From the NCBI RefSeq assembly GCF_000682715.1, contig NZ_AWFH01000003.1, forward strand, positions 1-64,000: 64,000 nt of DNA, written 5' to 3'. The stretch's first letter is position 1, and the number at the start of each line of letters is the position of its first letter. This stretch comes from Hyphomonas atlantica corrig. Its GTDB lineage: Bacteria > Pseudomonadota > Alphaproteobacteria > Caulobacterales > Hyphomonadaceae. The notes under the pieces are model-generated. The model was not told where the DNA came from. It was given only the letters and a program-made list of their open reading frames with translations, and did not search any database. The position numbers and the translations under genes were made by a program. Below are positions 214-14,279 of the stretch, piece by piece.

Positions 214-1404
214 ATGAGCGACGCAAACCAGTTTGACACAATCGTGCTTGGCGCGGGGGCGGCCGGCCTGTTCCATGCGGGCCTTGCCGGCCAGCGCGGG
301 CGGCGCGTGCTCGTTCTGGACCATGCGAAACGCCCCGCTGACAAGGTCCGGATTTCGGGCGGAGGCCGGTGTAACTTCACCAATCTGGAAACCCGCGCAG
401 ACCGGTTTCTTGGGCAGAATCTGCATTTTGCGAAATCAGCGCTTGCGCGCTACACGCCCTGGGATTTCATCTCTCTCATGGCCGCCCACGGCCTGACCTA
501 TACGGAGAAACACAAGGGGCAGCTATTCTGTGACCAGAAATCCGGCGCGATCATCAAGATGTTGCTGGACGAATGCGAAAAGGGCAGCGCCGAAATTCGC
601 CTGTCTACGGAGATTTCCGGCGTCACCCACCAGGACGGCCGTTTCCTCGTGGAGACACGCTCTGGCGCCGTCAGCGGCCAGCGCCTGGTCGTCGCCACGG
701 GCGGGCTGTCCATTCCCAAAATGGGCGCGACCGCCCTTGCCTATGATATCGCCCGCCAGTTCGGCCATGACATTGTCGAGACGCGCCCCGGCCTTGTGCC
801 GTTTACGTTTTCGGGTGAGCTGGGCGAGAAATTCGCCGCAATTTCCGGCGTTGCCGCGCCTGTCATCGCCTCTGTGCCCGGCGCAAGGTTCGAGGAAGAC
901 CTGCTGTTCACCCATCGCGGCCTCTCCGGCCCGGCCGCCCTGCAAACCTCCTCTTACTGGACAAGCGGAGAGCCCCTCTCCCTCTGCCTTCAGACCTCGG
1001 AAGACATGAACGCCGCCCTGCGCGCCGCAAAGCAGGACAGCCCGAAACAGACTTTCGTGAAAGCGCTCGAAGCGCACGTCCCTGCCCGGCTCGCAGCACT
1101 GCTCGCAGAAGTCGGTCCCATCGCGCAGGATGCCCGGCTGGCGGACCTTTCCCACGCCGCCATCGACGAGTTCGCAGCTTTCCTGAAGGATTGGCGCGTC
1201 ACCCCGATGGGCACCGAAGGATATCGCACCGCCGAAGTCACCGTCGGCGGCATCTCAACCGATGGCCTCAACCAGAAAACAATGGAAAGCCGGCACGTGC
1301 CGGGGCTCTACTTCATTGGCGAATGTGTCGATGTCACTGGCTGGCTTGGGGGGTACAATTTCCAATGGGCCTGGGCAAGCGCCCACGCCGCCGCCCTTGC
1401 CTGA
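214..1404 (+). CDS. BaiN/RdsA-family NAD(P)/FAD-dependent oxidoreductase (HI0933-like flavoprotein)
   Basis: This 396-residue protein belongs to the HI0933/YhiN flavoprotein family, which binds FAD and is thought to reduce small substrates; the substrate here is unknown. An N-terminal Rossmann dinucleotide-binding loop, VLGAGAAGLF, lies near residues 11-20. The family-typical SGGGRCNFTN follows near residues 48-57. The C-terminus carries the GLYFIGECVDVTGW and GGYNFQWAWASA signatures that close the FAD site. Length is normal for the family. The gene stands alone on this strand. Its TGA is immediately followed by the stop of the convergent ATP-grasp gene (TGA then TCA), so the two transcripts meet tail to tail. 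Identity is clear at family level; the physiological role is not. Confidence 0.9.
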   Translation: MSDANQFDTIVLGAGAAGLFHAGLAGQRGRRVLVLDHAKRPADKVRISGGGRCNFTNLETRADRFLGQNLHFAKSALARYTPWDFISLMAAHGLTYTEKHKGQLFCDQKSGAIIKMLLDECEKGSAEIRLSTEISGVTHQDGRFLVETRSGAVSGQRLVVATGGLSIPKMGATALAYDIARQFGHDIVETRPGLVPFTFSGELGEKFAAISGVAAPVIASVPGARFEEDLLFTHRGLSGPAALQTSSYWTSGEPLSLCLQTSEDMNAALRAAKQDSPKQTFVKALEAHVPARLAALLAEVGPIAQDARLADLSHAAIDEFAAFLKDWRVTPMGTEGYRTAEVTVGGISTDGLNQKTMESRHVPGLYFIGECVDVTGWLGGYNFQWAWASAHAAALA

Positions 1405-2367
1405 TCAGGGTGTCCAGCGCGGGCGCGGCAGCAGCCAGTCCCGCTTGCGTTGAGAAACAAGGTCCGGATGGTCCAGCGGAACGGGCTTGCCGCCAATAGG
1501 TGTATCTATTGCCTGCATCGCCTCGGCAAGGCGCTGATGAAACAGGGCATCTGTTTCAACACGTATCGGATACGGATGGTCCAGAATCCGGGAATTGTTC
1601 GGATTGGTGTTGATCTCGTAGACCTCCACCCGACCTCCAACAAGCGTGAAATCCGCCCGCCCGTATGAAATTCCTGCAGCCTCAAAATGTTTCTTCAGCG
1701 CGTCGGAATAGCGATTGTCCCGAACGGCTTCGTATTCGTCCTGATACAAATCGGCATCCGCCGCCCCTTCCTTGCCGAACTTTGCATGCCAGCTCTCATC
1801 ATGCACCGACATGCCGGTGACAATTTGCCCATTCACACAATAGGCCGCCAGTTTGCGAAACAAGCCGTCCTTGATCGGTTCCGCGCAATACTCAACAAAC
1901 ATCAGGTCTGACTTGCAAAGGCCTGACGCAACCAGACGCTCCAGCGCCATACTGGCCTGCTCTGCATTTCCGAGCAGTTCAGTCTGCGTTCCGCGATGTG
2001 CAGAGCGCGTGCGCAGGAAAACCGGGTATCGGTCAGGCAGAGAATCGGTTTCGGCATCCCAGACGGCAAAACTGTTCAAGCCCCTGCGGTTCAAAACCTT
2101 CAACAAGGGAAGCCGCGTCAAGGCCGTAGCCGGATCGTTCAGAACCCGAACACCCGCGTCTGACAGGCACCGGAATGCCTTGGCTGCAAGCTCCCTTTGC
2201 CAGAAATCGAGCCGGTCGAAATCCGTGAACACATAAGTTGCTCTGCGAAGAGATTTGGACCGGAACATCTGATTGTACGAGAGCAAGTCGACCTTCGGCA
2301 TTCCCGGAACGTCGCGAAGCTCCCTGACCGCATATTTATGCGAACCCGACGTCACAAAACAGATCAT
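1405..2367 (-). CDS. ATP-grasp ligase of the peptide island
   Basis: A 320-residue ATP-grasp-fold protein, the last gene of the island. The fold is read from the C-terminal metal/ATP site: D239 in YGRADF and E251/N253 in YEINTNPN, the D...E-x-N pattern of RimK/D-Ala-D-Ala-ligase-like enzymes. A basic, glycine-containing stretch (FLRTRSAHRGTQ, about 117-128) may be the nucleotide loop. I chose the ATG at 2365-2367 because GAGGG lies about eight bases upstream; a longer in-frame start at 2415 would overlap the flippase gene. The gap to the flippase stop is 22 bases, so co-transcription is likely. In RiPP loci such ligases form amide or ester bonds on a precursor peptide, or add amino acids to it. 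That role here is inference; an unrelated carboxylate-amine ligase is possible. Confidence 0.75.
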   Translation of the reverse strand: MICFVTSGSHKYAVRELRDVPGMPKVDLLSYNQMFRSKSLRRATYVFTDFDRLDFWQRELAAKAFRCLSDAGVRVLNDPATALTRLPLLKVLNRRGLNSFAVWDAETDSLPDRYPVFLRTRSAHRGTQTELLGNAEQASMALERLVASGLCKSDLMFVEYCAEPIKDGLFRKLAAYCVNGQIVTGMSVHDESWHAKFGKEGAADADLYQDEYEAVRDNRYSDALKKHFEAAGISYGRADFTLVGGRVEVYEINTNPNNSRILDHPYPIRVETDALFHQRLAEAMQAIDTPIGGKPVPLDHPDLVSQRKRDWLLPRPRWTP

Positions 2368-2389
2368 ACGCGTCCCTCTTGCAATCCCC

Positions 2390-3868
2390 CTAGGCGGGCT
2401 CGACTGCACCGTCATGATGATTGCGGAACCAGCCTATTCCCTCCCGGATTTCACGAACCTGCCCGGCTCCAACCACGAACATGAGGCCAGTATAAGAAAG
2501 TATGCCTGAAATGATCATTACCGCTACGCGTGCAATTTCAGACCAGTGCGCTGGCATATGGAAATTCACCAGCAACACGATCGCAACCATTCCAAGAGAG
2601 GCGATAAGCGCGCGCCATCCAATTACAATCTGGCGAATTGCAGAGTACCCAGCCGCTCTTTGAACCAACCATGCCGAGACCGGCCATGTCAGGAATGTAC
2701 GCAAAGCGATCAAAGTCGCGATCCCTGCAACTCCGTACGGCAAGAGCAAAGGTGCCAGAATGAAGAGAAACAGGATTCCGAGCGACAGGATGATCAGGGG
2801 AGACCGGCTGTCTCCCACCCCTCTGAGAATGGCGATGTTGAACGTGCCCGTTGCATCCCGAATTCCAAGCACCAGGAAAATCTGCAACGGCACCACCGCC
2901 GCTATCCACTCGTCCCCGATAACGAGCGGGATCAGGAGTGGCGAAACAATAGCCAGTCCCAATGTCGCCGGATAAATCACTGCGGTCGTCATTGCGAATA
3001 CGCGGTCGAGCAATTCGTGAACTGTCCTCCGACTGGATTGCAGACGCGCAACCACATTCATCGCGATTTCGTTGAACGGCCCCATCAGGAGACCTGTCAG
3101 GCTTCCGGAGATTGTGCCCGCGATAGACAGCAGCCCTACAGCCCGCTCTCCCCCAACGAGGCTCAACAGGAAACGCGGGATGGCATCGTCCACATAGCCC
3201 AGGAAATAGGTTCCCACCGTATCGCGATTGAACGCGAACAGCTCTCGGAAAGCAGTCACGCTAACCGAAAATCCCGGCCGCCATTTCGACGCGTAGAAGC
3301 ACCCTGCGACCGAAATGAGCGTACCCGCTGCCATGGAAATCACCAGCGACCAAACACCAAAGCCGAGAAGGGCCAGTACGAGAGCCAAACCCGTCGTCAG
3401 AAGTTCAGATGCAGTCTCAATCCAGACCAGTTTGTCGTTCTCAAGCTCTCGCTGCAATAGCGCGCCCGGCACGCCTTCGAGGCTACTGAAAAGCATGATC
3501 ACGCTAAGCGCGGGCAAAACCTCCGCCACCGCTGGCGCACCTATCAGCGCGGAGATTGGCTCTGCGAGCAGGGCAATCACGACTGCGAAAACCAAGGTAA
3601 GCCCTGAATTCAACCAGAATGTCGTATCAAGGTGTACGTTCGTTATCTCGTCTCTCTGCTGAATGCTTTCGGTAAGGGGGGCCCCGACGAATACACCTGC
3701 AACTCCGAAGACCAACGCGGCCAAGGCCATGATGCCGTAGGGCTCCGGGCCCAGTATTCGCGCCATGACAGCGAACGTTGCAAGGCCAAATACGGCCGAG
3801 GCCCAAGAGTGCGCGAACATCCAGACGAGATTTCGAATGGCGCGTCGAATGATTTGAGACGTGCTCAT
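2390..3868 (-). CDS. MOP-superfamily flippase (polysaccharide-type exporter) of the peptide island
   Basis: A 492-residue integral membrane protein with many hydrophobic segments across its whole length, consistent with 12-14 helices. It resembles lipopolysaccharide biosynthesis flippases (Wzx/WzxC-like), with the family-like N-terminal GLATFAVMARILGPEPYG and the later ERAVGLLSIAGTISG. Such proteins normally flip lipid-linked sugars across the inner membrane. No glycosyltransferase or polymerase gene lies nearby. Its start codon is one base past the stop of the HExxH gene (TGA-C-ATG), so the two are translationally coupled. In this context it may export the modified peptide or a conjugate, in place of the usual ABC transporter. 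The fold assignment is solid; the substrate is inference. Confidence 0.8.
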   Translation of the reverse strand: MSTSQIIRRAIRNLVWMFAHSWASAVFGLATFAVMARILGPEPYGIMALAALVFGVAGVFVGAPLTESIQQRDEITNVHLDTTFWLNSGLTLVFAVVIALLAEPISALIGAPAVAEVLPALSVIMLFSSLEGVPGALLQRELENDKLVWIETASELLTTGLALVLALLGFGVWSLVISMAAGTLISVAGCFYASKWRPGFSVSVTAFRELFAFNRDTVGTYFLGYVDDAIPRFLLSLVGGERAVGLLSIAGTISGSLTGLLMGPFNEIAMNVVARLQSSRRTVHELLDRVFAMTTAVIYPATLGLAIVSPLLIPLVIGDEWIAAVVPLQIFLVLGIRDATGTFNIAILRGVGDSRSPLIILSLGILFLFILAPLLLPYGVAGIATLIALRTFLTWPVSAWLVQRAAGYSAIRQIVIGWRALIASLGMVAIVLLVNFHMPAHWSEIARVAVMIISGILSYTGLMFVVGAGQVREIREGIGWFRNHHDGAVEPA

Positions 3869-3869
3869 G

Positions 3870-4868
3870 TCAGACGGGCTTCAACGCCCGGCCCAACCCA
3901 TCCATGAACCCCATCATGGCTTCAAGGACAGCCCGGCCCGTTTCTGTCAAACGGCCCTCTCGCTGCACAATCTCTGCCGAGTCTTGCTGAATCGCGTGAG
4001 CTTCCTTGAGAATTTTCTTCAACCGGCGGCGTTCCAGCCAGCCAAAGTCGCCCGTCTCAAGCATTTTCCCGATCACCCAGACCATTCTTGCCGAGACAAA
4101 CGACGCATGGAAGATTCCCTCCAGAGGTCGCTCGGTCTTTCTGATTGGCGACCAATATAGCTCCGAGTCCGGATTCTCGACGAGCATCTCACGCGTGCAG
4201 GCGCCGAACAGAGCGGCATGGCCCTCTTCATGCGCCAATGTGACGATCAAATCAGCAACAGACGCCTTACGCTCTGCGTTGAGTGCAACCGCGCCCCACA
4301 GGCGAAAGCACGTCCCTCCCTCGAATTCGAGCGCACCTTCTGCGGGGCCAACGAGGATAAGTTCGCCAAGCAAGGCGTTCATTTCATCATGAAGCTCAGG
4401 AACGTGAATCTGGATCCAGTCGATTGCTGCGGATAGCTTTGTTTCGAACTGGGTCGCCAGAACGCGATCTGGCTGGGTTACGCCCGCTGCACCTGTTTCA
4501 GGTGCTCCCATGAAGCGCTCAATCCGGCGTGTGTCAGTCTCTGAATGATCGCGACCAAGCACCGTAATCCGAGTTTTTTCAGGAATGCATTCCGATGACG
4601 CAATACGCTTCACTAGTTCAGACGCTGTTGCGATATCCGTCGCCTGCAACGCCTCCACTGCATCGTAATATGCGCCAAACACCGCCGCGGGAACTCGCAT
4701 TCCTGACCTGGCTGATTGTGTCCAATTTTTGAGGTGCCGGGATAGTTCTGGATCCTCTGATTTCAGAACATCCGCAATATGTTCAAGGCTTTCGAACAAG
4801 CCCTCATGCATGACCTGATTGGTTCTGATCGCATCTGCCTTGTGTGGGATAAACCGGAACTGCGCCAT
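3870..4868 (-). CDS. HExxH-motif peptide hydroxylase-like enzyme (TIGR04267 / alpha-KG-HExxH type)
   Basis: A 332-residue protein carrying HEEGH at residues 213-217 in the context LAHEEGHAALFG. A second conserved block at 235-261 includes YWSPIRKTERPLEGIFHASF, with H254 as a candidate third metal ligand. The HExxH motif, followed by Y-x-SP-x-R, RPL and G-x-x-HA-x-FV, is the hallmark I know for the HEXXH-motif family described as Fe(II)/alpha-ketoglutarate peptide beta-hydroxylases in RiPP pathways. It differs from zinc proteases, whose third ligand has another context. The start at 4866-4868 is chosen because GGGAG lies eight bases upstream. Extending to 5063 would read antisense-like through the precursor gene. 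It sits between the small peptide gene and the flippase. Hydroxylation of the peptide is inferred from family and context. Confidence 0.82.
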   Translation of the reverse strand: MAQFRFIPHKADAIRTNQVMHEGLFESLEHIADVLKSEDPELSRHLKNWTQSARSGMRVPAAVFGAYYDAVEALQATDIATASELVKRIASSECIPEKTRITVLGRDHSETDTRRIERFMGAPETGAAGVTQPDRVLATQFETKLSAAIDWIQIHVPELHDEMNALLGELILVGPAEGALEFEGGTCFRLWGAVALNAERKASVADLIVTLAHEEGHAALFGACTREMLVENPDSELYWSPIRKTERPLEGIFHASFVSARMVWVIGKMLETGDFGWLERRRLKKILKEAHAIQQDSAEIVQREGRLTETGRAVLEAMMGFMDGLGRALKPV

Positions 4869-4904
4869 GCTTGCATCTCCCGTCCTGCGGATCAGAGTGA
4901 GGTG

Positions 4905-4930
4905 TGCACCGCCTGCGAACAGGCAGTGCA
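4905..4930 (-). promoter_or_regulatory. Intercistronic hairpin between precursor and enzyme genes
   Basis: In the minus-strand transcript, UGCACUGCCUG pairs with CAGGCGGUGCA over 11 positions (one U-G wobble) around a UUCG loop. Arms are 4905-4915 and 4920-4930, loop 4916-4919. It lies in the 82-base gap between the peptide stop (4951) and the hydroxylase start (4868). No U-run follows, so it is unlikely to be a full terminator. An mRNA-stabilising or processing hairpin that raises precursor output over enzyme output is a common arrangement in peptide operons; that role is inferred. Confidence 0.7.
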
Positions 4931-4950
4931 CCAATGTTCGTTCCGGAAAA

Positions 4951-5088
4951 CTACCAGAACTTGAAGAAGAACTTCTTACCGCCGCGCTTTTTATTGCGAC
5001 GACCGCCGCCCTTGCAGCCGACCATCGTGTCGTTTTTCTCGTCACGACGATTGCTGAAGCCAAGCAGCATTTCAGTCTTAAGGTTCAT
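4951..5088 (-). CDS. Putative RiPP precursor peptide, 45 residues
   Basis: A 45-residue open frame starts ATG at 5086-5088 with AGGGAG six bases upstream, an excellent ribosome binding site, and ends TAG at 4951-4953. Residues 1-23 form a mixed, partly acidic leader-like segment containing EMLLGF and RRDEKND. From residue 24 the peptide becomes strongly basic and glycine-rich, with a single Cys at 25, GGG at 27-29 and GG at 36-37. It ends in KKFFFKFW, four Phe and a terminal Trp. There are 13 Lys/Arg against 4 Asp/Glu. It is the first gene of an operon with an HExxH hydroxylase, a flippase and an ATP-grasp ligase, which is why I read it as the substrate. GG at 36-37 could be a cleavage site releasing an octapeptide. 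I know of no characterised homologue. It could instead be a small basic protein. Confidence 0.7.
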   Translation of the reverse strand: MNLKTEMLLGFSNRRDEKNDTMVGCKGGGRRNKKRGGKKFFFKFW

Positions 5089-5170
5089 TTTCTACTCCCT
5101 AGAGTCCCACCACCATTGGCGGTGCCAACCATCTTGCAGATTCCATGCAAGTTTCCGATCTGATTCTACT

Positions 5171-5192
5171 AATTCGCGAATTTCCATTCGCG
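5171..5192. promoter_or_regulatory. Nested palindromes upstream of the peptide operon
   Basis: AATTCGCGAATT at 5171-5182 is a perfect 12-base palindrome. It overlaps a second perfect inverted repeat, CGCGAAT (5175-5181) and ATTCGCG (5186-5192), separated by TTCC. Both lie 83-104 bases upstream of the peptide start and downstream of truB. This is a reasonable operator candidate for a dimeric regulator. No matching regulator gene lies in the island, and no convincing -35/-10 pair could be fixed here. A short read-through hairpin from truB is an alternative. Confidence 0.4.
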
Positions 5193-5311
5193 CGACTTCG
5201 CCCGACGCACGATTGGGCGAGGAAAATCAAGCGTCGGCAGGGAGATTGCCGAGCCTGGCGTCCGGAAAAGTCGAATACACTCTAGGTTTGGATTACTTCA
5301 GCAGGCCCAAA

Positions 5312-6253
5312 TCAGGACATGAAAACCCGGCCTGGCTCGAATTGGCCGGCCCGAATTTCCCCCAGTGCAACCGCCTTGCCCTCGCACACCGCGATTGCAG
5401 ACCGATCTTCAGGGTCTTCTGATTTCTGTCCCTGCCAAGCCTCGATGAGATGCGGGAGCAAAACAATGGAGCGGCCATGTCTAATGTGTCCGGCTTCTTC
5501 GCGCGTGATGTCCACACTTGGCACACCTTCAAGCACAGCATGGATTGGCTGCAGAAAGCCCATCAATGTCTCAGGATCTTCCGTTTCCTCGATGCGCGAC
5601 AAGGGTATCGCTGTTGCTGCACCGAACTGTCCGACCCGCGTACGGCGCAGCTGACTGATATGACCTTCGCATTCAAGATCAAACGCGAGATCCCGTGCCA
5701 TGGCGCGTACGTAAAAGCCTTTGCCGGACGTGACGTGAATAACGGTATGGTCTGCATCAGGCATACCGATGACATCTGCTGTAAAGACATCCACTTCGCG
5801 TGAGGTCAATTCAAACTCCTCGCCTTCCCGCGCGAGGTCATAGGCGCGTTGGCCATCTACCTTAATCGCTGAAAACCGCGGCGGAACCTGTTCGATTGTG
5901 CCAATATAGCCTTTCAGCAACTCTTCGACTTGCTCCCGTGTGGGACGAGCGTCAGACGTTCCCGTGACGTCTCCTTCGGCATCCTGGCTCTCGGTCGATA
6001 CGCCCCAGCGAATGGTGAAGACATATTCTTTCCGGGCGTCCATTGCCCACTGCACGGTTTTGGTCGCTTCCCCGAATGCTATCGGCAGAATGCCATCGGC
6101 CAGTGGATCGAGCGTCCCGCCGTGTCCGACTTTTTGGGCGTTGTACTTTTTCTTGAGGATGGCCACCGCTTGGGTGGAGGTGATGTCGACTGGTTTGAAA
6201 AGGTTCAGCCACCCGGTGACCGGGTCGCCTTTGCGTTTTCTTTGACGGGCCAA
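5312..6253 (-). CDS. truB: tRNA pseudouridine(55) synthase
   Basis: TruB converts U55 of tRNA T-arms to pseudouridine in the cytoplasm. The catalytic block GHGGTLDPLADGILPIAFG, with the nucleophilic Asp in TLDPLA, lies near residues 43-61. The Y-containing EYVFTIRWGVST and the KGFYVRAMARDLA motif follow in family order. The 313-residue length is normal. The start appears to be TTG (6251-6253), because the N-terminal RKRKGDPVTGWLNLFKP matches the usual TruB beginning and no ATG is available closer. It ends the infB-rbfA operon on this strand, 133 bases after a small membrane-protein gene. In related bacteria rpsO commonly follows; here the peptide island follows instead. Confidence 0.95.
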   Translation of the reverse strand: MARQRKRKGDPVTGWLNLFKPVDITSTQAVAILKKKYNAQKVGHGGTLDPLADGILPIAFGEATKTVQWAMDARKEYVFTIRWGVSTESQDAEGDVTGTSDARPTREQVEELLKGYIGTIEQVPPRFSAIKVDGQRAYDLAREGEEFELTSREVDVFTADVIGMPDADHTVIHVTSGKGFYVRAMARDLAFDLECEGHISQLRRTRVGQFGAATAIPLSRIEETEDPETLMGFLQPIHAVLEGVPSVDITREEAGHIRHGRSIVLLPHLIEAWQGQKSEDPEDRSAIAVCEGKAVALGEIRAGQFEPGRVFMS

Positions 6254-6386
6254 GATACGAGACTTTCAGATTGCGCGGCCCGGCGGTTCGAACGCGGACG
6301 GCGGAGAGAGATTGAGATTAAGGCGGGGCCATACGAAGCGGGGTCAAACCCGTCAAGGCGAGAGGGTCAGCCCGAAATGTCGCGGA

Positions 6387-7037
6387 TCAGGTCACGCTAC
6401 GCAGATCACCTGATGGCTCGTCAAACAGAACTTCAGCTTCAGCCTTTGACGAGCCTCCCACCTCTTCTGACGACGTTACCTCGGAGGTAAGCTCGCGCGT
6501 CTCGTTTGGCTTGCTGATGTTCACGAGATCCAGGTCCAGATCGAAATCGCCTTGAACCTCCCGGTCACCGGAATCCATTTTGCGTCGCACAATGTCGCGA
6601 ATGCGCAGCAGTACAGCGCGATTGTCATCCACCAGAGGAATCTGTCGCCCATCGGATGCGCCAATCACGAGCCGATAGTAGGGCTGCCGCTTCTTCATCC
6701 GGCGCGCGAACATTGCAGCACGAACACCGAGGATCACCGCAAGCACGGTCAGCACGCATCCGACGATCAGCGCGATCATGCTGGAGCCGCTACCGGGAAA
6801 CAAACCTCCCCATGCAAGCGCGAGCAGACCAAAGAACAGGCTGATCACAAAGAACGACGCGTAGAGGCTCTTCGTGCGGCGGTTCGTTTCCGTATCCCAA
6901 GGCGCAAATTCCATAGATTCCACAGACATCGTCGCGATGCGCTGAATAGCAATCGTATCATCGCCGAGCTGTAGAGACGCTGGCGTGATTTCACCACGCC
7001 GCGCGCCTTCCATGTCCAAGGTCTGACGGTCCATCAC
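6387..7037 (-). CDS. Two-TM membrane protein of unknown function in the infB-truB operon
   Basis: A 216-residue protein. An N-terminal part (about 1-55, with ITPASLQLGDDTIAIQRIAT) looks beta-rich. Two hydrophobic segments lie near 61-80 and 86-106, then a basic linker RRMKKRQ. A second beta-rich segment, YYRLVIGASDGRQIPLVD, is followed by an acidic, Ser/Glu-rich tail. The pattern resembles DUF6232-type proteins (a short domain either side of a TM hairpin), but I do not assign a function. It lies 87 bases downstream of rbfA and upstream of truB on the same strand, so it is probably co-transcribed with the translation genes without being one. Both MM start codons are possible. Confidence 0.6.
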   Translation of the reverse strand: MMDRQTLDMEGARRGEITPASLQLGDDTIAIQRIATMSVESMEFAPWDTETNRRTKSLYASFFVISLFFGLLALAWGGLFPGSGSSMIALIVGCVLTVLAVILGVRAAMFARRMKKRQPYYRLVIGASDGRQIPLVDDNRAVLLRIRDIVRRKMDSGDREVQGDFDLDLDLVNISKPNETRELTSEVTSSEEVGGSSKAEAEVLFDEPSGDLRSVT

Positions 7038-7124
7038 GCTTGCCCTTGATTAAACTCAGAAAACGCTCGCAGCACGTGCTGAGTGAGTCAACTTACAACC
7101 TGTCCAGAGGCGTAGATTCGACTG

Positions 7125-7529
7125 TTATTCCGGATCGAGATCGCGCCTTACGCGAGGATCTGCCAGCAAGCGGTCGATTGCGGTGGCCTCATCGTAGGAT
7201 TTGTCTGCGATGAAATGCAGTTGAGGCGTGAACTTCATGTCAATCTCGCGGCCGAGGCGCCCGCGCAAGAAACCCGCTGCGCGATTCAGGGCTTCGGCCA
7301 GTTTGCCGCGCCCGGCTTCACTATCATCACCCAGTGGGGAAACGAAAATATTGGCATGGCGCAAATCAGGAGAACATCGCACCTCCCCGACCGTCACGAT
7401 GACGCCGACAAGATCCGGATCACGCAAGTCTTCCCGCGCAAGGATATCCGACACGGCATGCCGGATCAGTTCGCCTGCACGCAATTGGCGTTGACTGGGA
7501 AGTCCAGGAGCATTTGTTTTACGTGCCAT
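7125..7529 (-). CDS. rbfA: 30S ribosome-binding factor A
   Basis: RbfA is a KH-like factor that assists late 16S rRNA 5'-end maturation and cold adaptation of the small subunit. The 134-residue protein shows the family's QRQLRAGELIRHAVSDILAR start, the VIVTVGEVRCSPDLRHANIFV core and a closing PQLHFIADKSYDEATAIDRLL. Its ATG overlaps the stop of the upstream small membrane-protein gene by one base (7529), which implies translational coupling. Position in the infB-rbfA-truB order supports the call. Confidence 0.95.
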   Translation of the reverse strand: MARKTNAPGLPSQRQLRAGELIRHAVSDILAREDLRDPDLVGVIVTVGEVRCSPDLRHANIFVSPLGDDSEAGRGKLAEALNRAAGFLRGRLGREIDMKFTPQLHFIADKSYDEATAIDRLLADPRVRRDLDPE

Positions 7530-8050
7530 CAGACACCTGCTTTCTGTTTCAGACGCTCAACAAACTGTTTGCGCGCCACTCTATCATTATCGAACCACGC
7601 GTCCGGGATCAGCAAGGGCTCTGCCCCCTGCACTTCAACGGTCGTGTATCCTCGGCGGGTTTTGACCGACACTACGTTTGCCCAGTCGATCCGAATTTCT
7701 ACGCCACCGCGACGCACTTGCATGCGCTCCTCCAGCAGCTGGACGTCCATCTCCGCTCTGCCATCGCCCACAACGTCCCTTGGCGACCGATACGACCATC
7801 GAATGAAGATCAGATACCATGATATCCCGGCAAGGGCCGCCACGAGCGCGGACAAGAACCATTGCCAATAGGCGCTCAGGCCCACCATCTCTATCGCATT
7901 GCGCACCATCACCGACATGCTGGCAGAAATGATTGGCGCCGTAACGCCCGCATAATAAATCGCAGTCGGACCGACCGTCCCGCGTCTGGAAAGACGGATC
8001 AGGCGCTTCTGGTCTTTTTCGTCCAGAAAGCCGGAGATCTTGTCAGACAC
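7529..8050 (-). CDS. Membrane protein with a TM hairpin and PH-like tail
   Basis: A 173-residue protein I do not recognise by name. Two hydrophobic segments (about 30-47 and 62-82) form a hairpin. They are followed by a beta-rich domain (about 95-155) with LLEERMQVRRGGVEIRIDW, SVKTRRGYTTVEVQG and LLIPDAWFDN, which resembles YcxB-like/bacterial PH domains. The C-terminus is a short charged helix. It sits between infB and rbfA, overlapping rbfA by one base and 17 bases after infB, so it is in the translation operon. Together with the product of 6387-7037 it makes a second TM-hairpin protein interleaved in this operon. Confidence 0.6.
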   Translation of the reverse strand: MSDKISGFLDEKDQKRLIRLSRRGTVGPTAIYYAGVTAPIISASMSVMVRNAIEMVGLSAYWQWFLSALVAALAGISWYLIFIRWSYRSPRDVVGDGRAEMDVQLLEERMQVRRGGVEIRIDWANVVSVKTRRGYTTVEVQGAEPLLIPDAWFDNDRVARKQFVERLKQKAGV

Positions 8051-8067
8051 GGGCCTTCACCGCCGTC

Positions 8068-10623
8068 CTAGTCGAGCGACCTGGCGATCTCTTCAACCTG
8101 GAAGCACTCGATCTTGTCGCCGGGGCGAATATCATCATAGCGCTCAAACGCCATGCCGCATTCCATTCCGGCGTTCACCTCGTTCACTTCGTCCTTGAAG
8201 CGCTTCAGCGTCTTCAGATTGCCTTCATGGATCACAACGTCGTCGCGCAGCAGGCGTACACCACAACCACGAAGAACCTTGCCTTCGCTGATACGACAGC
8301 CAGCGACCTTGCCGACCTTCGTGATGTTGAACACTTCGAGGATTTCGGCGTAACCGATGAAGGTTTCGCGTTTCTCCGGTGCGAGCATGCCCGACAGGGT
8401 TGCCTTCACGTCGTCAATCAGATCGTAGATCACGGAATAGTAGCGGATCTCAACGCCTTCTTTCTCCGCCAGATCACGTGCTTGCTTGTTGGCACGCACG
8501 TTAAAGGCAAAGATTGGCGCTTCAGACGACTGGGCCAGAAGAACGTCGCTTTCCGAAATACCACCAACCGCGCCATGAATGACGCGTGCACGCACTTCTT
8601 CAGTTGAAAGCTTGTCCAGAGACTGGCTGATCGCCTCGACTGAGCCTTGAACATCGCCCTTGACGACAACTGGCAGCTCGGAAGTCTCAACCGAGCCATC
8701 CTTCAGCTTGCTGAGCAATTGATCGAGCGACGCGCGCGCTGCCGCGCCGGCCTTACCAGCAACCTGGCGCTTCTGGCGCACGCGGTACTCGGTAACTTCC
8801 CGAGCACGCGCTTCACTGTCGACAACAACAAACTCATCACCAGGCTCCGGCGCACCGTCCAGACCGAGCACCTCGACCGGAAGGGCTGGACCAGCCTCCT
8901 TGAGTTGTTGACCGCGCTCGTCGACCAGAGCGCGGACCTTGCCCCACTGAGCGCCAGCTACGACGATGTCGCCGCGCTTGAGCGTGCCGCGTTTAACCAG
9001 CACGGTGGCAACCGGACCACGGCCCTTGTCGAGTTGGCTTTCAATCACGGATCCGTCTGCCGGACGGCTTGGATTGGCTTTCAATTCGAGAAGTTCGGCT
9101 TGCAGAGAAATAGCATCCGTCAGCGCGTCCAGCCCCTCACCCGTCAGCGCAGACACCTTCACGGACTGGGTTTCGCCGCCCATGCTTTCGACCTGAACAT
9201 CATGTTGCAGAAGATCGGTCAGCACCTTGTCCGGATTGGCATCCGGCAGGTCGGATTTGTTCACCGCAACGATGATCGGAACACCCGCCGCCTTGGCGTG
9301 ATTGATGGACTCGATCGTCTGCGGCATGACGGAGTCATCTGCCGCGACAACAAGGATAGCAATATCTGTCGCCGTGGCGCCGCGTGCGCGCATGGCGGTA
9401 AAGGCCGCGTGGCCAGGCGTATCAAGGAACGTAATCCGTTCGCCAGATTTCAGTTTCACCTGGTACGCACCGATGTGCTGGGTAATGCCGCCAGCCTCGC
9501 CGGACACAACGTCCGTCTTGCGAAGGGCATCCAGAAGCGAGGTCTTGCCGTGGTCAACGTGGCCCATGATCGTCACGATCGGCGCACGTGGCTTCAGATC
9601 CTTTGGATCATCCTCAGCGCCTTCCAAGCCGATTTCAACGTCGGATTCGGAGACGCGCTTCACCGTGTGGCCGAATTCCTCGGCAATCAGTTCTGCCGTG
9701 TCAGCATCGATGATGTCGTTTCCACGGAGCATCTCGCCCTGCTGGATCATGAACTTCACGACATCAGCGACGCGCTCATTCATCCGCTGGGCAAGATCCT
9801 GCAATGTAATGGTCTCTGGCAGGGTGACCTCAATCGAGACTTTCTCACGCTGGTCGTTGCCGCCGGTGCGGCGCTCGCGCTCGCGTTCCCGCGCGCGGCG
9901 AACCGATGCCAGCGAACGCTGACGATCCGCATCATCGCCCAAAGCGGAAGAGATGGTCAGCTTGCCGCGGCGACGCTCACCGCCACCACCGCCGCGTGAG
10001 CCACGGCCCTGAGAATCCCGACCGGAGCGATCCCGATCGTCGCGGCCAGACTTGCCACGTTTGGCACGGCTTGGCGCCTCTTCAACCGGTTGTGCAGCCG
10101 CTGGCGACGCATCAGCCTTGGTGCGTGTCTTCTGTGACCGTTCGGCGCGCTCCTTGGCAGCAGCTTCCTCAACCTTGCGGGCTTCCTCTTCGGCCTTGCG
10201 ACGGGCTTCGGCCTCTTCGCGTTCCTTGGCTTCCTGAAGCTTTTTCTCCTGTTCGGAGCGCAGGCGATCTTGCGCTGCTTTCTGGTTCTCTTCTTCCTTG
10301 GCGCGCGCGGCTTCTTCCTGCTTGCGCTCATAGAGCGCTTTCTGACGAGCTTTCAGCTCGTTGACCGTAATGCCAAGTTTCTTGGCTGTTGCGATCAGGC
10401 GCGCTTCCATCGAGTCCGCAGACGGTTTCGCTTTCGAGGTATCCCCTGCTGGCGCAGCAGACGAACCGCTCGGCCCAACTGACCGACGTTTCTTGGTTTC
10501 AACAACCACCTGCTTGGAGCGGCCATGACTGAAGCTCTGCTTCACCGTACCGGAAGATTTCCGAGAAACGGTGAGCGGCTTGCGTCCGCCCGTATTACCA
10601 CCAGTGTCTTTCGTATCGCTCAT
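8068..10623 (-). CDS. infB: Translation initiation factor IF-2
   Basis: IF-2 is the GTPase that places initiator tRNA on the 30S subunit. The 851-residue protein begins with a long, highly charged, Lys/Arg/Glu/Ala-rich region (about 1-240) with coiled-coil character, as in alphaproteobacterial IF-2. The G domain follows, with P-loop [16 protein letters not shown] near 357-372, DTPGHAAF for G3 and [11 protein letters not shown] for G4. Beta-barrel domain II, domain III and the C-terminal domain (ending [10 protein letters not shown]) are all present. The ATG is at 10621-10623. The gene lies 60 bases after the YlxR-like gene and is read with nusA and rimP. Confidence 0.97.
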
Positions 10624-10683
10624 ACGTTCTTCATACCACGTTTCTTGCCGATGTGCGCCAATGCACTTCGGCTTTGTTTTCCG

Positions 10684-11358
10684 CTACCGATCCTGATCCG
10701 GGAACCAGTCCAGTTCGGGTCTTGCTCGAAATCCGGCCAGCCGCTGATAGGCCAGCTCTATCGTCTTCGCAAACGGACCCTTGCGGACGAGACCGTGTAT
10801 CACACGCTCACGTCCAAACGCCATGCCCAATTCTTCGGAACTGAGCGCACCGGCAATTTTCACGTTGCTATATAATGCTTTGGCGAGAAAATACACCTTT
10901 GAACGGCCATCTTCTGCACCATCAGTGGCTTCCAGCAGCAAACCGGGCCGCTTCTTCTGCAGGGCTTCTCGCACCTGATCGAAGCCGAGAACAATGTCCC
11001 CCGCTTTCCTCGCCATCCCCATCAGGCTGATCACCCGCTGAAGCAGCAAATTCTCCACCAGTTCCGGCAAATCTGTCGGGACCGTGGCTTGTTGCTTGAA
11101 TCCACGGGCGAAAGCGCCCTTGCGCATGGCAATCTCAAGCGTATCCCTGTCGGCCCGCAGCCAGACACCCCGGCCCGGCAGCTTGCCAAGAATATCTGGC
11201 GTCACAACCTGATCAGGTGACAGCACGAAGCGAACCATCTCCTCCTGTGAGAGATGGTCTCTGGACACAATGCATTGCCGGACGGGGCCTGCCCCGTCCG
11301 CAACACGGCCTTCAGTGTCGGTTACCCGCGCTTCACTCTTGCGGTGCGGCCTCGTCAT
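10684..11358 (-). CDS. YlxR (DUF448)/L7Ae-like RNA-binding protein
   Basis: A 224-residue protein with an N-terminal DUF448/YlxR domain: RQCIVSRDHLSQEEMVRFV followed by LPGRGVWLRADRDTLEIAM (about 20-85). A C-terminal ribosomal-L7Ae-like region follows, with LMGMARKAGDIVLGFDQVREAL and a late GRERVIHGLVRKG. Alphaproteobacteria carry this fused form between nusA and infB; it is presumed to bind RNA in ribosome or transcription work. I start at ATG 11356-11358, which lies inside the nusA 3' end and gives a 26-base overlap. A start further upstream would only read through nusA. The function is not established experimentally here. Confidence 0.85.
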   Translation of the reverse strand: MTRPHRKSEARVTDTEGRVADGAGPVRQCIVSRDHLSQEEMVRFVLSPDQVVTPDILGKLPGRGVWLRADRDTLEIAMRKGAFARGFKQQATVPTDLPELVENLLLQRVISLMGMARKAGDIVLGFDQVREALQKKRPGLLLEATDGAEDGRSKVYFLAKALYSNVKIAGALSSEELGMAFGRERVIHGLVRKGPFAKTIELAYQRLAGFRARPELDWFPDQDR

Positions 11359-13099
11359 CGCCGCCCTCCGCTGCCAGGGCATCGAGATCAAACTCGAGCT
11401 CTTCGAGGGCCTCATCCACCGCGTCCGGAGACGGGTTGCTGCCAAGTTCGCCGAGCGCCAGCAGCGCGCGTTCCTCTTCGGTCAGCTCAGGCTCTTCTTC
11501 CTTCGCTTGTTCAGCCAGCATCTGCTCAAGGGCGTCCGGCTCGATCCAGCCTGCGGCGACACGCGCGCGCATGATGAACATTTGCGCGTCATCCTTGCGC
11601 ATTTCGCCCTTCTTCAGAACGCCTTCGACCCAGACCGGCTTTCCATCCGGGCCCGGCTCGCGCCAACCCGTGATGTCATCCGGCACGAGACCAGCCACAT
11701 CGTCCAGCGTCTGCACGCCTTCTTCACCAAGACGCACGGCGAAAGATGGCGACATGCCTTCCAACTCCATGACAGCGTCTTCAACACCCAGTTCACGGCG
11801 CTTGGCATCGTTTTCGGCAGCCAGTCGCTCAAGGAATTCGCGAGCACGTTCCTGAAGTTCTTCGGCTACGTCCTCGTCAAAACCTTCAATCGTGATGAAG
11901 TCTTCCGGCGCCACATAAGCGATCTCTTCGACCGTCTCAAAGCCTTCCGAAGCCAGCAGCTGAGCCAGCGTCTCGTCGGCATCCAGCGCCTTCATGAAGA
12001 GGTCCGTCCGCTCCTGGAATTCGCGCTGGTAGCGCTCGGAGTCGGCGGTCTCTGTCACCAGGTCGATCTGCCACCCCGTAAGCTGGGACGCGAGACGCAC
12101 ATTCTGACCACGGCGGCCAATCGCCAGAGGGAACTGGTCGTCCGCCACAACAACTTCGACGCGGCGCTCTTCCTCATCCAGCACGACTTTCGACACTTCG
12201 GCCGGCTGCAGTGCATTCACAATGAAGGTCGCATCGTCATAATTCCACGGAATGATGTCGATCTTCTCGCCCGACAGTTCGCCGACCACAGCCTGAACAC
12301 GCGCACCGCGCATACCGACACAGGCGCCGACGGGATCAATCGAGGAATCATTGGAGATCACACCGATCTTCGCACGGCTGCCCGGATCGCGGGAACATGC
12401 CTTGATCTCGATGACACCTTCATAAACTTCCGGCACTTCCTGCGCGAACAGGCGCACCATGAAATCCGGTGCGGCGCGGGACAGGAAGATTTGCGGACCC
12501 TTGGTCTCGCGGCTCACCTTGTAAAGATAGGCACGAACGCGGTCATTGGTTTGGAAATTCTCGCGCGGGATGCCGTCATTGCGACGGATGATGCCTTCGG
12601 CGCGACCCAGATCGACAATGACGTGACCGTATTCCACACGCTTTACAACACCGGAGATAACTTCGCCGACGCGATCCTTGTATTCGTTGTACTGGCGCTC
12701 GCGCTCGGCATCGCGCACCTTCTGCATGATGACCTGTTTGGCGGTCTGCGCTGCGACACGGCCAAAATCGAAGGGCGGCAGCTCTTCTTTCAGCTCGTCG
12801 CCAGCTTCCAGCGTTTCGTCCAGCTTCTTCGCTTCGGACAGACGCAGCTCCTTGGCCTCATCCTCGAACGCGTCGTCAGCGACAACGGTCTGAACACGCC
12901 ATAGCGTCTGCTCGCCGGTCGTTGCGTCGATCTTCGCACGGATGTCGTGCTCTTGGCCGTATTTCGCTTTTGCGGCCTTTTCGATCGCTTCCTGCATGGC
13001 CTCGATGACAATCGTCTGATCGATTGCCTTCTCTTCGGCGACCGCTTTCGCGATCTGCAGGATTTCCAGCCTGTTGGCTGAAACGCCGATGGTGCTCAT
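11333..13099 (-). CDS. nusA: Transcription termination/antitermination protein NusA
   Basis: NusA binds RNA polymerase and nascent RNA, modulating pausing, termination and antitermination. The 588-residue protein has the N-terminal polymerase-binding domain (start to about 130), an S1 domain (GEVISGVVKRVEYGHVIVDL, about 134-200), and KH1/KH2 with the conserved DPVGACVGMRGARVQ and AIGRRGQNVRLASQL. Two helix-hairpin-helix-type repeats (SEGFETVEEIAYV and LGEEGVQTLDDVAGL) follow. A glutamate-rich alphaproteobacterial tail runs to the end. Its ATG overlaps the rimP stop (ATGA), the usual rimP-nusA coupling. Confidence 0.97.
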   Translation of the reverse strand: MSTIGVSANRLEILQIAKAVAEEKAIDQTIVIEAMQEAIEKAAKAKYGQEHDIRAKIDATTGEQTLWRVQTVVADDAFEDEAKELRLSEAKKLDETLEAGDELKEELPPFDFGRVAAQTAKQVIMQKVRDAERERQYNEYKDRVGEVISGVVKRVEYGHVIVDLGRAEGIIRRNDGIPRENFQTNDRVRAYLYKVSRETKGPQIFLSRAAPDFMVRLFAQEVPEVYEGVIEIKACSRDPGSRAKIGVISNDSSIDPVGACVGMRGARVQAVVGELSGEKIDIIPWNYDDATFIVNALQPAEVSKVVLDEEERRVEVVVADDQFPLAIGRRGQNVRLASQLTGWQIDLVTETADSERYQREFQERTDLFMKALDADETLAQLLASEGFETVEEIAYVAPEDFITIEGFDEDVAEELQERAREFLERLAAENDAKRRELGVEDAVMELEGMSPSFAVRLGEEGVQTLDDVAGLVPDDITGWREPGPDGKPVWVEGVLKKGEMRKDDAQMFIMRARVAAGWIEPDALEQMLAEQAKEEEPELTEEERALLALGELGSNPSPDAVDEALEELEFDLDALAAEGGDDEAAPQE

Positions 13100-13695
13100 T
13101 TGACGTCTCCCGTCTCTTCGTTTGTATCGGTGTCTTCGTCTGTCTCGTCGATCTCAAGATCGCCGAGGTCATCTTCATCCGGCTGTGGCGGCAATGTGCC
13201 GTCTGCGCGAGCCGCCTCAATCAGTTCGTCCGTCAGGATCAGGCTGGCCTTACTCATCTCGTGAACGTGAGCCACCAGCTCGGTTTCGTCATCCAGCTCC
13301 AAATGCGCGCCGTCTTCATCCTCTCCGGTGATCATTCCGGAGAAGCGGCGACGGCCATCAATCGGTCGCACAAGTTCCACTTTGGCAGCATGGCCCACCC
13401 AGCGGCCAAAATCACCTTCCCGGGTCAGTGGACGGTCAATGCCCGGCGTGGAGACTTCCAGCGTGTACGCCTCCTTGATGGGGTCTGCCTCATCCAGCAT
13501 CGGCGCGATGGCCCGCGAAAGGCTGGCGCAATCTTCGACATTCGTCGGGGCGCCCCCTGCCCTCTCAGCCATGATCTGGAGGTGCGGACGCCGCCCACCC
13601 TGAATGCGCAGGCGAACGATTTCCATGCCAATCTGCTCGGCCACCGGCGTGACGAGCGAAAGAATTTGGCGTTCCTGTTCGGTCAGAGCAATCAT
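13096..13695 (-). CDS. rimP: Ribosome maturation factor RimP
   Basis: RimP supports 30S subunit maturation in the cytoplasm. The 199-residue protein has the family N-terminal block with MEIVRLRIQGGRRPHLQIMAE, the LSRAIAPMLDE and YTLEVSTPGIDRPLT signatures, and an SH3-like C-terminal part ending in an acidic Asp/Glu tail. That tail is longer than in enteric RimP but common in alphaproteobacteria. It is the first gene of the translation operon. Its 5' end lies after two terminators that insulate it from the upstream cold-shock gene. Confidence 0.95.
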   Translation of the reverse strand: MIALTEQERQILSLVTPVAEQIGMEIVRLRIQGGRRPHLQIMAERAGGAPTNVEDCASLSRAIAPMLDEADPIKEAYTLEVSTPGIDRPLTREGDFGRWVGHAAKVELVRPIDGRRRFSGMITGEDEDGAHLELDDETELVAHVHEMSKASLILTDELIEAARADGTLPPQPDEDDLGDLEIDETDEDTDTNEETGDVK

Positions 13696-13717
13696 CTGAG
13701 GTGCGGACTATTCCAAT

Positions 13718-13755
13718 AAAGAAAAGCGGCGGCCCCGTTTCCGGAACCGCCGCCG
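13718..13755 (-). terminator. Second rho-independent terminator after the cold-shock gene
   Basis: On the minus strand CGGCGGCGGTT pairs across a TTCCGGAAAC-type loop with GGGGCCGCCGC, followed by TTTTCTTT. It is read in the direction from the cold-shock gene towards rimP and lies 23 bases upstream of rimP. Confidence 0.75.
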
Positions 13756-13821
13756 ATATGTTTCGACTTGAGAGACGTATACCCCTGCGTGCGGCAGATG
13801 TCGAGCGTCGCTTGCTGTAGA

Positions 13822-13857
13822 ACGAAAGACGGCGACTTCGTTCCCAAAGCCGCCGTC
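13822..13857 (-). terminator. First rho-independent terminator after the cold-shock gene
   Basis: GACGGCGGCTT and AAGTCGCCGTC (minus strand) form a stem with a short loop, followed by TTTCGTT. It starts 25 bases after the cold-shock stop codon. Confidence 0.8.
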
Positions 13858-13881
13858 CTGAATCCTGTACGGATACGCGTC

Positions 13882-14091
13882 TTAGAGAATCTTCAGATCC
13901 ACAGCCGAGGTCTTGCCGCGGCGTTCGTCCTTGTAGAGTTCGTAAGAGATAGCCTGGTCTTCTGCCAGTGTGCGAAGGCCGGAGCGTTCAACGGCCGAAA
14001 TGTGCACAAAAACGTCAGAGCCGCCCTCATCAGGTTTGATGAAGCCAAAGCCTTTCTGGTCATTGAACCATTTCACTTTGCCAGTTGCCAT
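13882..14091 (-). CDS. Cold-shock protein (CspA family)
   Basis: A 69-residue OB-fold RNA chaperone. It begins MATGKVKWFNDQKGFGFIKP, containing the RNP1 motif KGFGFI, followed by the RNP2 motif DVFVHIS. Both nucleic-acid-binding motifs are intact and length is typical. AAGGA lies about eight bases upstream of the ATG. A structured leader of roughly 150 bases precedes it, as expected of cold-inducible csp mRNAs. Two tandem terminators follow. It is monocistronic. Confidence 0.95.
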   Translation of the reverse strand: MATGKVKWFNDQKGFGFIKPDEGGSDVFVHISAVERSGLRTLAEDQAISYELYKDERRGKTSAVDLKIL

Positions 14092-14279
14092 TACTTGTAG
14101 TCCTTTACGTTAAGTAGAAGCGTCCCGGTTCGGGATTTGAACCAGATCCGCCTATCGAAACGGGAGGGAAGGAAAGTCATGGCCGCCGGTCTGACGGGGT
14201 CTTGATATTTCAGACCGACCGAATTCGATGCCGCTATTAAGCGCATGGGTGCGACAATCGGTCAAGTGAATGTCTTGTG
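14092..14279 (-). promoter_or_regulatory. Long leader of the cold-shock gene
   Basis: This gene-free stretch between the cold-shock start and the trmB stop contains short inverted repeats, including GGTTC/GAACC around 14126-14142 and GGTCTGA/TCAGACC-like arms around 14188-14217. They could fold in the leader mRNA. I see no further open frame. A role as a cold-responsive 5' UTR is inferred from what is known of csp mRNAs. Confidence 0.35.

Follow-up and report, generated by a model that had tools for sequence, protein, structure and literature searches.

A cassette of four genes at positions 1405 to 5088 of a 64,000-nucleotide stretch of DNA (the window) from the marine bacterium Hyphomonas atlantica was analyzed as a putative system for making a ribosomally synthesized and post-translationally modified peptide (RiPP). 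The cassette encodes a short precursor peptide, an HExxH-type peptide hydroxylase predicted to depend on alpha-ketoglutarate (aKG), a flippase, and an ATP-grasp ligase. Comparisons with other genomes place the precursor, the hydroxylase, and a ligase at the core of a wider family. G and L numbers denote the comparison genomes and loci. The four genes are as follows.

4951–5088, minus strand: precursor peptide gene, 45 residues; conserved codons 1–28 (5005–5088) with LLGF and VGCKGG, and a variable cationic/aromatic tail (4951–5004)
3870–4868, minus strand: aKG-HExxH-type peptide hydroxylase, 332 residues; TIGR04267 match
2390–3868, minus strand: MOP (Wzx/TuaB-like) flippase, presumed exporter, 492 residues; PF13440 match
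1405–2367, minus strand: diverged ATP-grasp ligase of the D-Ala-D-Ala-ligase/RimK-like kind, 320 residues; found by a profile against the PDB

A preliminary description, made from the sequence alone, had listed four genes on one strand with gaps of 82, 1, and 22 bases and a strong ribosome binding site ahead of the peptide gene. Open reading frames (ORFs) were found at these coordinates, all on the minus strand, the three gaps are exact, and GGGAG lies upstream of the 45-residue peptide gene. Short peptides with a similar tail were expected to co-occur with the three larger genes, and they do. All six close Hyphomonas cassettes carry the four genes with the same type of tail. A diverged seventh cassette, in G069, has enzymes that are 30–46% identical and likewise contains the four genes, its precursor being a related one. 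The four genes sit between truB and the gene for an HI0933-like flavoprotein in all six close genomes, the names of the flanking genes being confirmed by Pfam. The near relatives G043 and G053 have an HI0933-like protein 80% identical to the window's, and in them an uninterrupted 30 and 29 bp, respectively, separate its gene from truB. This empty site indicates that exactly these four genes were acquired or lost together, as a block. The four genes are one unit.

The precursor gene is real and under purifying selection

The HExxH gene is present in 7 of 105 genomes of the host's family, the window's included. A strong full-length relative of the ATP-grasp gene is confined to the same 7 of 105 genomes, and two others gave partial or weak matches. 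The peptide gene is found in all six close cassettes (the window's included), and the other five peptides are 74–81% identical to the window's. The ratio of nonsynonymous to synonymous change (pN/pS) in precursor codons 1–28 is 0.151 across the six sequences, compared to 0.336 for HExxH and 0.234 for ATP-grasp (five ungapped sequences each). Shifted frames of the same codons give 3.33 and 0.75, and the invariant sites number 27, 24, and 14 of 28 at codon positions 1, 2, and 3. These data show that the 45-codon gene is real and under purifying selection. The tail changes faster, with a pN/pS of 0.553 in the four of six sequences that have equal length. All six Hyphomonas tails contain 6–9 Lys or Arg residues, 4–5 aromatic residues, and no acidic residue. 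A RiPP locus is expected to have a genuine, conserved gene for a short precursor next to its modifying enzymes, and a conserved leader with a more variable core. The window locus has both, the second being shown by the pN/pS values of 0.151 and 0.553. Synonymous change in the leader is 0.335 compared to 0.606 and 0.671 in the enzymes, a reduction that may reflect an RNA-level constraint on the leader.

Assignment of the two enzymes

The HExxH protein matches TIGR04267 (IPR026337) at 86.3 bits, above the curated cut-off of 40, in agreement with its preliminary assignment. The HE-x-x-H, S-P-x-R, and G-x-x-HA blocks are invariant in all 13 aligned members and are also seen in the ChlH alignment. 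Its relatives in the PDB, found by profile, are 8s5f (ChlH) and 22nu. The window protein belongs to the aKG-HExxH peptide hydroxylase family, with Fe(II)/aKG-dependent peptide oxidation as its predicted activity. The ATP-grasp assignment was right though not obvious. Pfam is silent on this protein at E up to 1, and no NCBIfam RiPP ligase model matched at E up to 1. A profile of 15 ATP-grasp members (A7) matches PDB D-Ala-D-Ala ligases (4.4e-4, by way of a GRxDF...EiNTnP segment) and a ribosomal protein S6 modification enzyme (0.038), results that are weak but consistent with the motifs. GR-D and E-NT-P are invariant in all 15 relatives.

A ligase adjoins HExxH across a wider group

Profiles of the HExxH protein were used to search genomes at thresholds from 1e-6 to 1e-20, with query genomes counted and some genomes present in several searches. 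Among genomes of the class, 7 of 385 gave matches, and among those of the phylum, 8 of 398. One other family in the same class had matches in 12 of 295 genomes, and two further families in 4 of 10 and 4 of 4. In the family of G508, a member of another class of the phylum, 1 of 98 genomes matched. The 37 neighborhoods compared were the window, 35 from genomes, and one of four plasmid matches (Pantoea). The tree of the 37 HExxH proteins, rooted at its midpoint only, separates 30 rows (window included) from 7 with support of 98/98. Within the 30, G985, G677, and G1044 each form a long branch. The six Hyphomonas sequences also sit on a long branch, so their exact placement in the tree is provisional.

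A carboxylate-activating ligase adjoins HExxH in 28 of the 30 rows and comes from three unrelated families: P0004-type ATP-grasp (17 rows), cyanophycin-synthetase-like ATP-grasp (7), and AMP-forming ligase (4). The P0004-type gene is present in two copies in G444 and in locus L098 of G914, and one AMP-forming ligase has carrier and thioesterase domains. The two rows lacking an adjacent ligase are G914b (none) and G495b (contig end). None of the three ligase types is adjacent in the other 7 rows, one of which has a YcaO protein and one an MFS transporter. The association of ligases with the 30-row group has a Fisher p of 3.5e-6, a value computed with seeds from the same loci, a sample grown from window-seeded profiles, related rows, and a small outgroup. 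The occupation of one place beside one HExxH group by three unrelated ligase families suggests that carboxylate activation is the shared step. All three parts, precursor, HExxH, and ligase, occur in 25 of the 30 members; 26 have a precursor, including G914b, which has no ligase. These three genes are the conserved core of the family.

The flippase is a polysaccharide-type MOP protein, as proposed earlier. It matches PF13440 at 2.5e-56, and its scores against the NCBIfam MOP flippase models fall below the cut-offs. A flippase, the sole transporter type sought across the 30-row group, was found in 7 of the 30 rows, only in the seven members of the genus Hyphomonas. It thus lies outside the conserved core, and across the family the preliminary four-gene set stands for precursor, HExxH, and ligase only. 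The flippase was rejected as a defining part of the system.

The flippase and the ATP-grasp ligase might instead form a cell-surface glycan module that exports and decorates a lipid-linked polymer, the peptide being incidental or a structural decoration. An exopolysaccharide locus on a Paracoccus plasmid, in which a flippase adjoins a P0004-like ATP-grasp gene and HExxH is absent, resembles such a module. However, Pfam and NCBIfam detected no glycosyltransferase among the four window genes or the five flanking genes scanned, and the cassette neighbors are the HI0933-like gene, truB, a DUF6232 gene, rbfA, and infB. The restriction of the flippase to 7 of 30 group members and the conservation of the precursor beside HExxH also argue against a glycan module, which we consider very improbable. 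The flippase is best read as the exporter of the Hyphomonas product.

A precursor family with lysine-containing units

A short ORF with leader-like or G-x-K-x-G-like sequence lies beside HExxH in 26 of the 30 members, giving at least 30 precursors, each of which was re-found in its locus. No precursor is visible in G495a, G495b (contig end), G696, and G914c. The family has the consensus leader LDxSKLLGFR and cores with G-x-K-x-G units. Twenty-five of 30 precursors were scored, leaving out G070, G047, G995a, G677, and G1044. K-x-G was observed 71 times in the 25 cores compared to 24.7 expected in shuffled cores, and 12 of the 25 are individually enriched at p < 0.05. Gly occupies position -2 in 42 of 66 K-x-G units from 22 precursors, a count from which the near copies G062, G037, and G052 were additionally dropped, and V, I, and T are the commonest residues between K and G. 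The K-x-G excess and the Gly at -2 point to lysine as the shared target-like residue. NCBIfam has no family for the window peptide or for the six other precursors tested, and Pfam, run on four precursors, gave only chance-level matches below cut-off in two.

Leader and full-length profiles were used to place individual peptides in the family. The leader profile scores E 0.035 in the AMP-ligase member G677, 0.43 in the ligase-free G607, and 5 in G1044. Persistence of the motif in G677, and weakly in ligase-free G607, hints that HExxH, rather than the ligase, recognizes the leader. A leader-only profile from 15 non-Hyphomonas sequences detects the G069 precursor at E 1.1e-5 and fails on the G286-group precursors. 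With a full-length profile built from 15 precursors of other genera, the window peptide scores 8.0 bits, the highest of all 1,691 ORFs in the window. When 4,001 ORFs from six loci and the window are pooled, the best match to this profile is the G069 precursor (E 1.1e-7), and the six Hyphomonas precursors are all in the best 12 (E 0.13 to 4.5). The full-length score of the window peptide was reached by none of 2000 shuffles of its residues, and the counts for other precursors, of 2000 each, were 0 (G000), 0 (G037), 1 (G070), 1 (G047), 0 (G052), and 3 (G062). The leader and unit motifs occur together in 0.16% of shuffles. Of 1,169 short ORFs, 3 have both, and each of these is a precursor. We take the window peptide to be a diverged family member that has a single unit and has gained a new tail.

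The composition of the cores bears on crosslinking, which had been one of the modifications first proposed. Four of the 25 scored cores contain no Asp or Glu (G069, G494b, G496, and G508), and Lys outnumbers Asp plus Glu in 24 of 25. In those four, the carboxylate would have to be supplied from beyond the core or by the C-terminus. In a graspetide-like pathway, the ATP-grasp enzyme would link Lys/Thr to Asp/Glu of the precursor as a lactam or lactone (for example, in RRDEKNDTMVGCKGG), HExxH would hydroxylate the peptide, and the product would be crosslinked. The ATP-grasp enzymes of graspetides catalyze such crosslinks (PMC8939145), and R-D-x-K-N-D-T is kept in all six Hyphomonas precursors. 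However, the combination of Ser/Thr/Lys donors with Asp/Glu acceptors is not general in the family, although the window core has 1 acidic residue and its conserved part more. Two other ligase families substitute for this one, and the window ligase matches no NCBIfam RiPP ligase model at E up to 1. A graspetide-like crosslink is improbable for the family as a whole.

The residues that known HExxH enzymes hydroxylate are His, Asp, Phe, Gln, and Pro (PMC13060819). PflC and PosC hydroxylate Gln and cut the backbone, leaving an amide (PMC12636437). The site and outcome of the HExxH reaction here are not predictable because known members act on varied residues and two also cleave the backbone. Cleavage of this kind could operate in the family: HExxH would cut oxidatively at the core units, the ligase would extend or cap the new terminus, and lysine would be a recognition residue only. 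The cassette has no peptidase, and the repeated Gly-rich units of other precursors would give several small products. In contrast, only one unit is present in the Hyphomonas precursor, and all six sequences preserve a C-terminal tail of similar character, suggesting that the tail belongs to the product. Oxidative cleavage is a distinctly doubtful alternative to modification of an intact core.

Proposed mechanism

The cassette is best explained as a compact RiPP cluster, a diverged member of the precursor, HExxH, and ligase family. The N-terminal part of the 45-residue precursor would recruit the enzymes. HExxH, acting as an Fe/aKG oxygenase, would hydroxylate core residues. The ATP-grasp enzyme would activate a carboxylate, most likely on a small acid or an unbound amino acid, and join it to the epsilon-amine of the lysine in the G-x-K-x-G unit (VGCKGG in the window). 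The predicted product is a strongly cationic, aromatic-ended peptide that the flippase would move across the membrane and that probably acts on the membranes of competitors. Taken whole, with its chemistry, export, and bioactivity, this explanation has in our judgment an even chance of being correct.

Several observations weigh against it. The cassette has no leader-removal protease and no further gene lies between truB and the HI0933-like gene; a known HExxH cluster likewise lacks a protease (PMC12636437). AlphaFold models of both enzymes are of low confidence, with mean predicted local distance difference test (pLDDT) values of 47.8 and 57.6. The conserved part of the window precursor contains the Asp, Lys, and Thr residues that crosslinking would require. 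The window peptide has a single G-x-K-x-G unit, and its K-x-G count of 2 is not above chance (1.46 expected, p 0.47). The leader-only profile misses it (E 82), and its full-length profile score is weak (E 0.83), so its place in the family is weak by score. The precursors and their start codons were chosen by eye, and the K-x-G motif and core boundaries were set after the sequences had been inspected.

A broader proposal is that these loci represent a new RiPP class that extends over multiple families of the Alphaproteobacteria and into at least one further class of the phylum. Its members would have the LDxSKLLGFR leader and G-x-K-x-G repeats, with the lysine of each unit acylated or aminoacylated in an ATP-dependent reaction beside a hydroxylated residue, three swapped ligase families, and a MOP flippase as exporter in Hyphomonas. 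We advance this proposal tentatively, at somewhat short of even odds.

Hairpins and repeats around the precursor gene

Two conserved elements flank the precursor gene.

4904–4931, minus strand: 12-bp hairpin between the precursor gene and HExxH; no U tract in the window; z -3.26
5134–5150, minus strand: TTGCA-N7-TGCAA inverted repeat upstream of the precursor gene; both arms invariant in all six Hyphomonas sequences

All 60 of 60 cells of the 12-bp hairpin are paired in five sequences, and two pairs are changed on both sides. This pairing was reached by 7 of 500 shuffles and the double changes by 61 of 500. G047, in which one hairpin arm is missing, was excluded from the alignment; the loss (L016, about 11840–11900) is either real or an assembly collapse. 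At the same place in G069 there is a longer hairpin, with U residues after it. The 12-bp hairpin is plausibly a site of transcript ending or processing that would raise the amount of precursor over that of enzyme. RiPP operons commonly have such elements between the precursor gene and the enzyme genes. A terminator scan of 1200–6300 found 7 compared to 5.1 expected, and the intergenic 12-bp hairpin was not among them. An Rfam search of 1300–5500 gave zero matches. The inverted repeat is a possible operator or RNA element. A second, variable hairpin lies upstream of the precursor within 5092–5160 (z -1.42 for the whole stretch).

Variant loci

Several loci differ in the genes found near HExxH or the ligases. 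L045 (G394; 9157–11233, plus strand) has an HExxH gene followed directly by a YcaO-family gene, with a 41-residue ORF upstream. L079 (G677; 4767–8506, minus strand) combines HExxH, an adenylation-carrier-thioesterase protein, and a precursor in which the repeat LGRLFSKRG occurs twice. This locus places a ribosomal peptide beside a nonribosomal peptide synthetase-like module. L105 (G985; 12489–14213, plus strand) carries another cyanophycin-synthetase-like ORF, located about 5 kb away from the copy adjacent to HExxH. Outside the 30-row group, a short ORF with two ELPAxxLDTTGAAPQTGK-type repeats lies just upstream of the HExxH gene in L057 (G491; 10511–10660, minus strand). L055, on the Pantoea agglomerans plasmid NZ_CP068441.1, has, behind a AAGGAAAG stretch, a 23-residue ORF (5809–5880, plus strand) that ends in SGWSFSK. 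This ORF is absent from the incomplete gene table of the record and precedes a terminator-like hairpin, the HExxH gene, and an MFS gene. The plasmid locus is possibly a very small RiPP system. The ATP-grasp search of plasmids gave two distant matches, one inside an exopolysaccharide locus. P0004-like ATP-grasp genes with no HExxH seen nearby occur in L054 (Paracoccus plasmid; 2777–5278, plus strand), beside the flippase in the exopolysaccharide locus, alone in L053 (Deinococcus plasmid; 7935–9047, plus strand), and as a tandem pair in L044 (G183; 6935–8841, minus strand).

Relation to known systems

The aKG-HExxH peptide beta-hydroxylases (ChlH/ChlBH, BpmH, and PesO) and PflC/PosC share with the window enzyme the TIGR04267 family, the profile match to ChlH (8s5f), and a short precursor in the cluster. 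The partners named for them in the passages covered are radical SAM, MNIO, GNAT, or asparagine-synthetase-like enzymes (PMC12636437, PMC13060819), whereas the window has ATP-grasp, a flippase, and another type of precursor. Graspetides (microviridin and relatives) also pair a precursor with an ATP-grasp ligase, and differ in the acidic acceptor that 4 of 25 scored cores lack and in the RiPP ligase models that do not match the window enzyme. The main text of a graspetide survey (PMC8939145) never mentions HExxH, Hyphomonas, or flippase. The std cluster carbamoylates lysine and then hydroxylates the homocitrulline, and is alike in combining lysine side-chain conjugation with an iron oxygenase (PMC13174530). 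It uses a carbamoyltransferase and an MNIO, neither of which is seen in the window cassette. Selidamides and nostolysamides carry an acyl group on Lys side chains (PMC13060382). The acyltransferases of lysine-acylated RiPPs are not among the four window genes. Those of selidamides and nostolysamides are GNAT-type.

The preliminary description knew of no pathway with this exact set, and the literature matches listed (titles and abstract starts) agree: the combination of precursor, HExxH, and ligase or flippase is not described among them. No paper among these matches joins RiPP, flippase, precursor peptide, and ATP-grasp, and the single search aimed at a MOP flippase used for a ribosomal peptide gave no such case. 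One joins HExxH, precursor peptide, ATP-grasp, and biosynthetic gene cluster, and it concerns microviridin leader cleavage. The enzyme family is known; the ligase pairing and the precursor family are apparently undescribed.

These loci provide a defined minimal set of precursor, oxygenase, and ligase in which the predicted reactions would become readable. If the lysines are aminoacylated, the product would carry a RiPP modification not met in the portions of the literature covered here. The swap of three ligase families would then be a rare natural experiment on enzyme exchange in which the substrate is kept.

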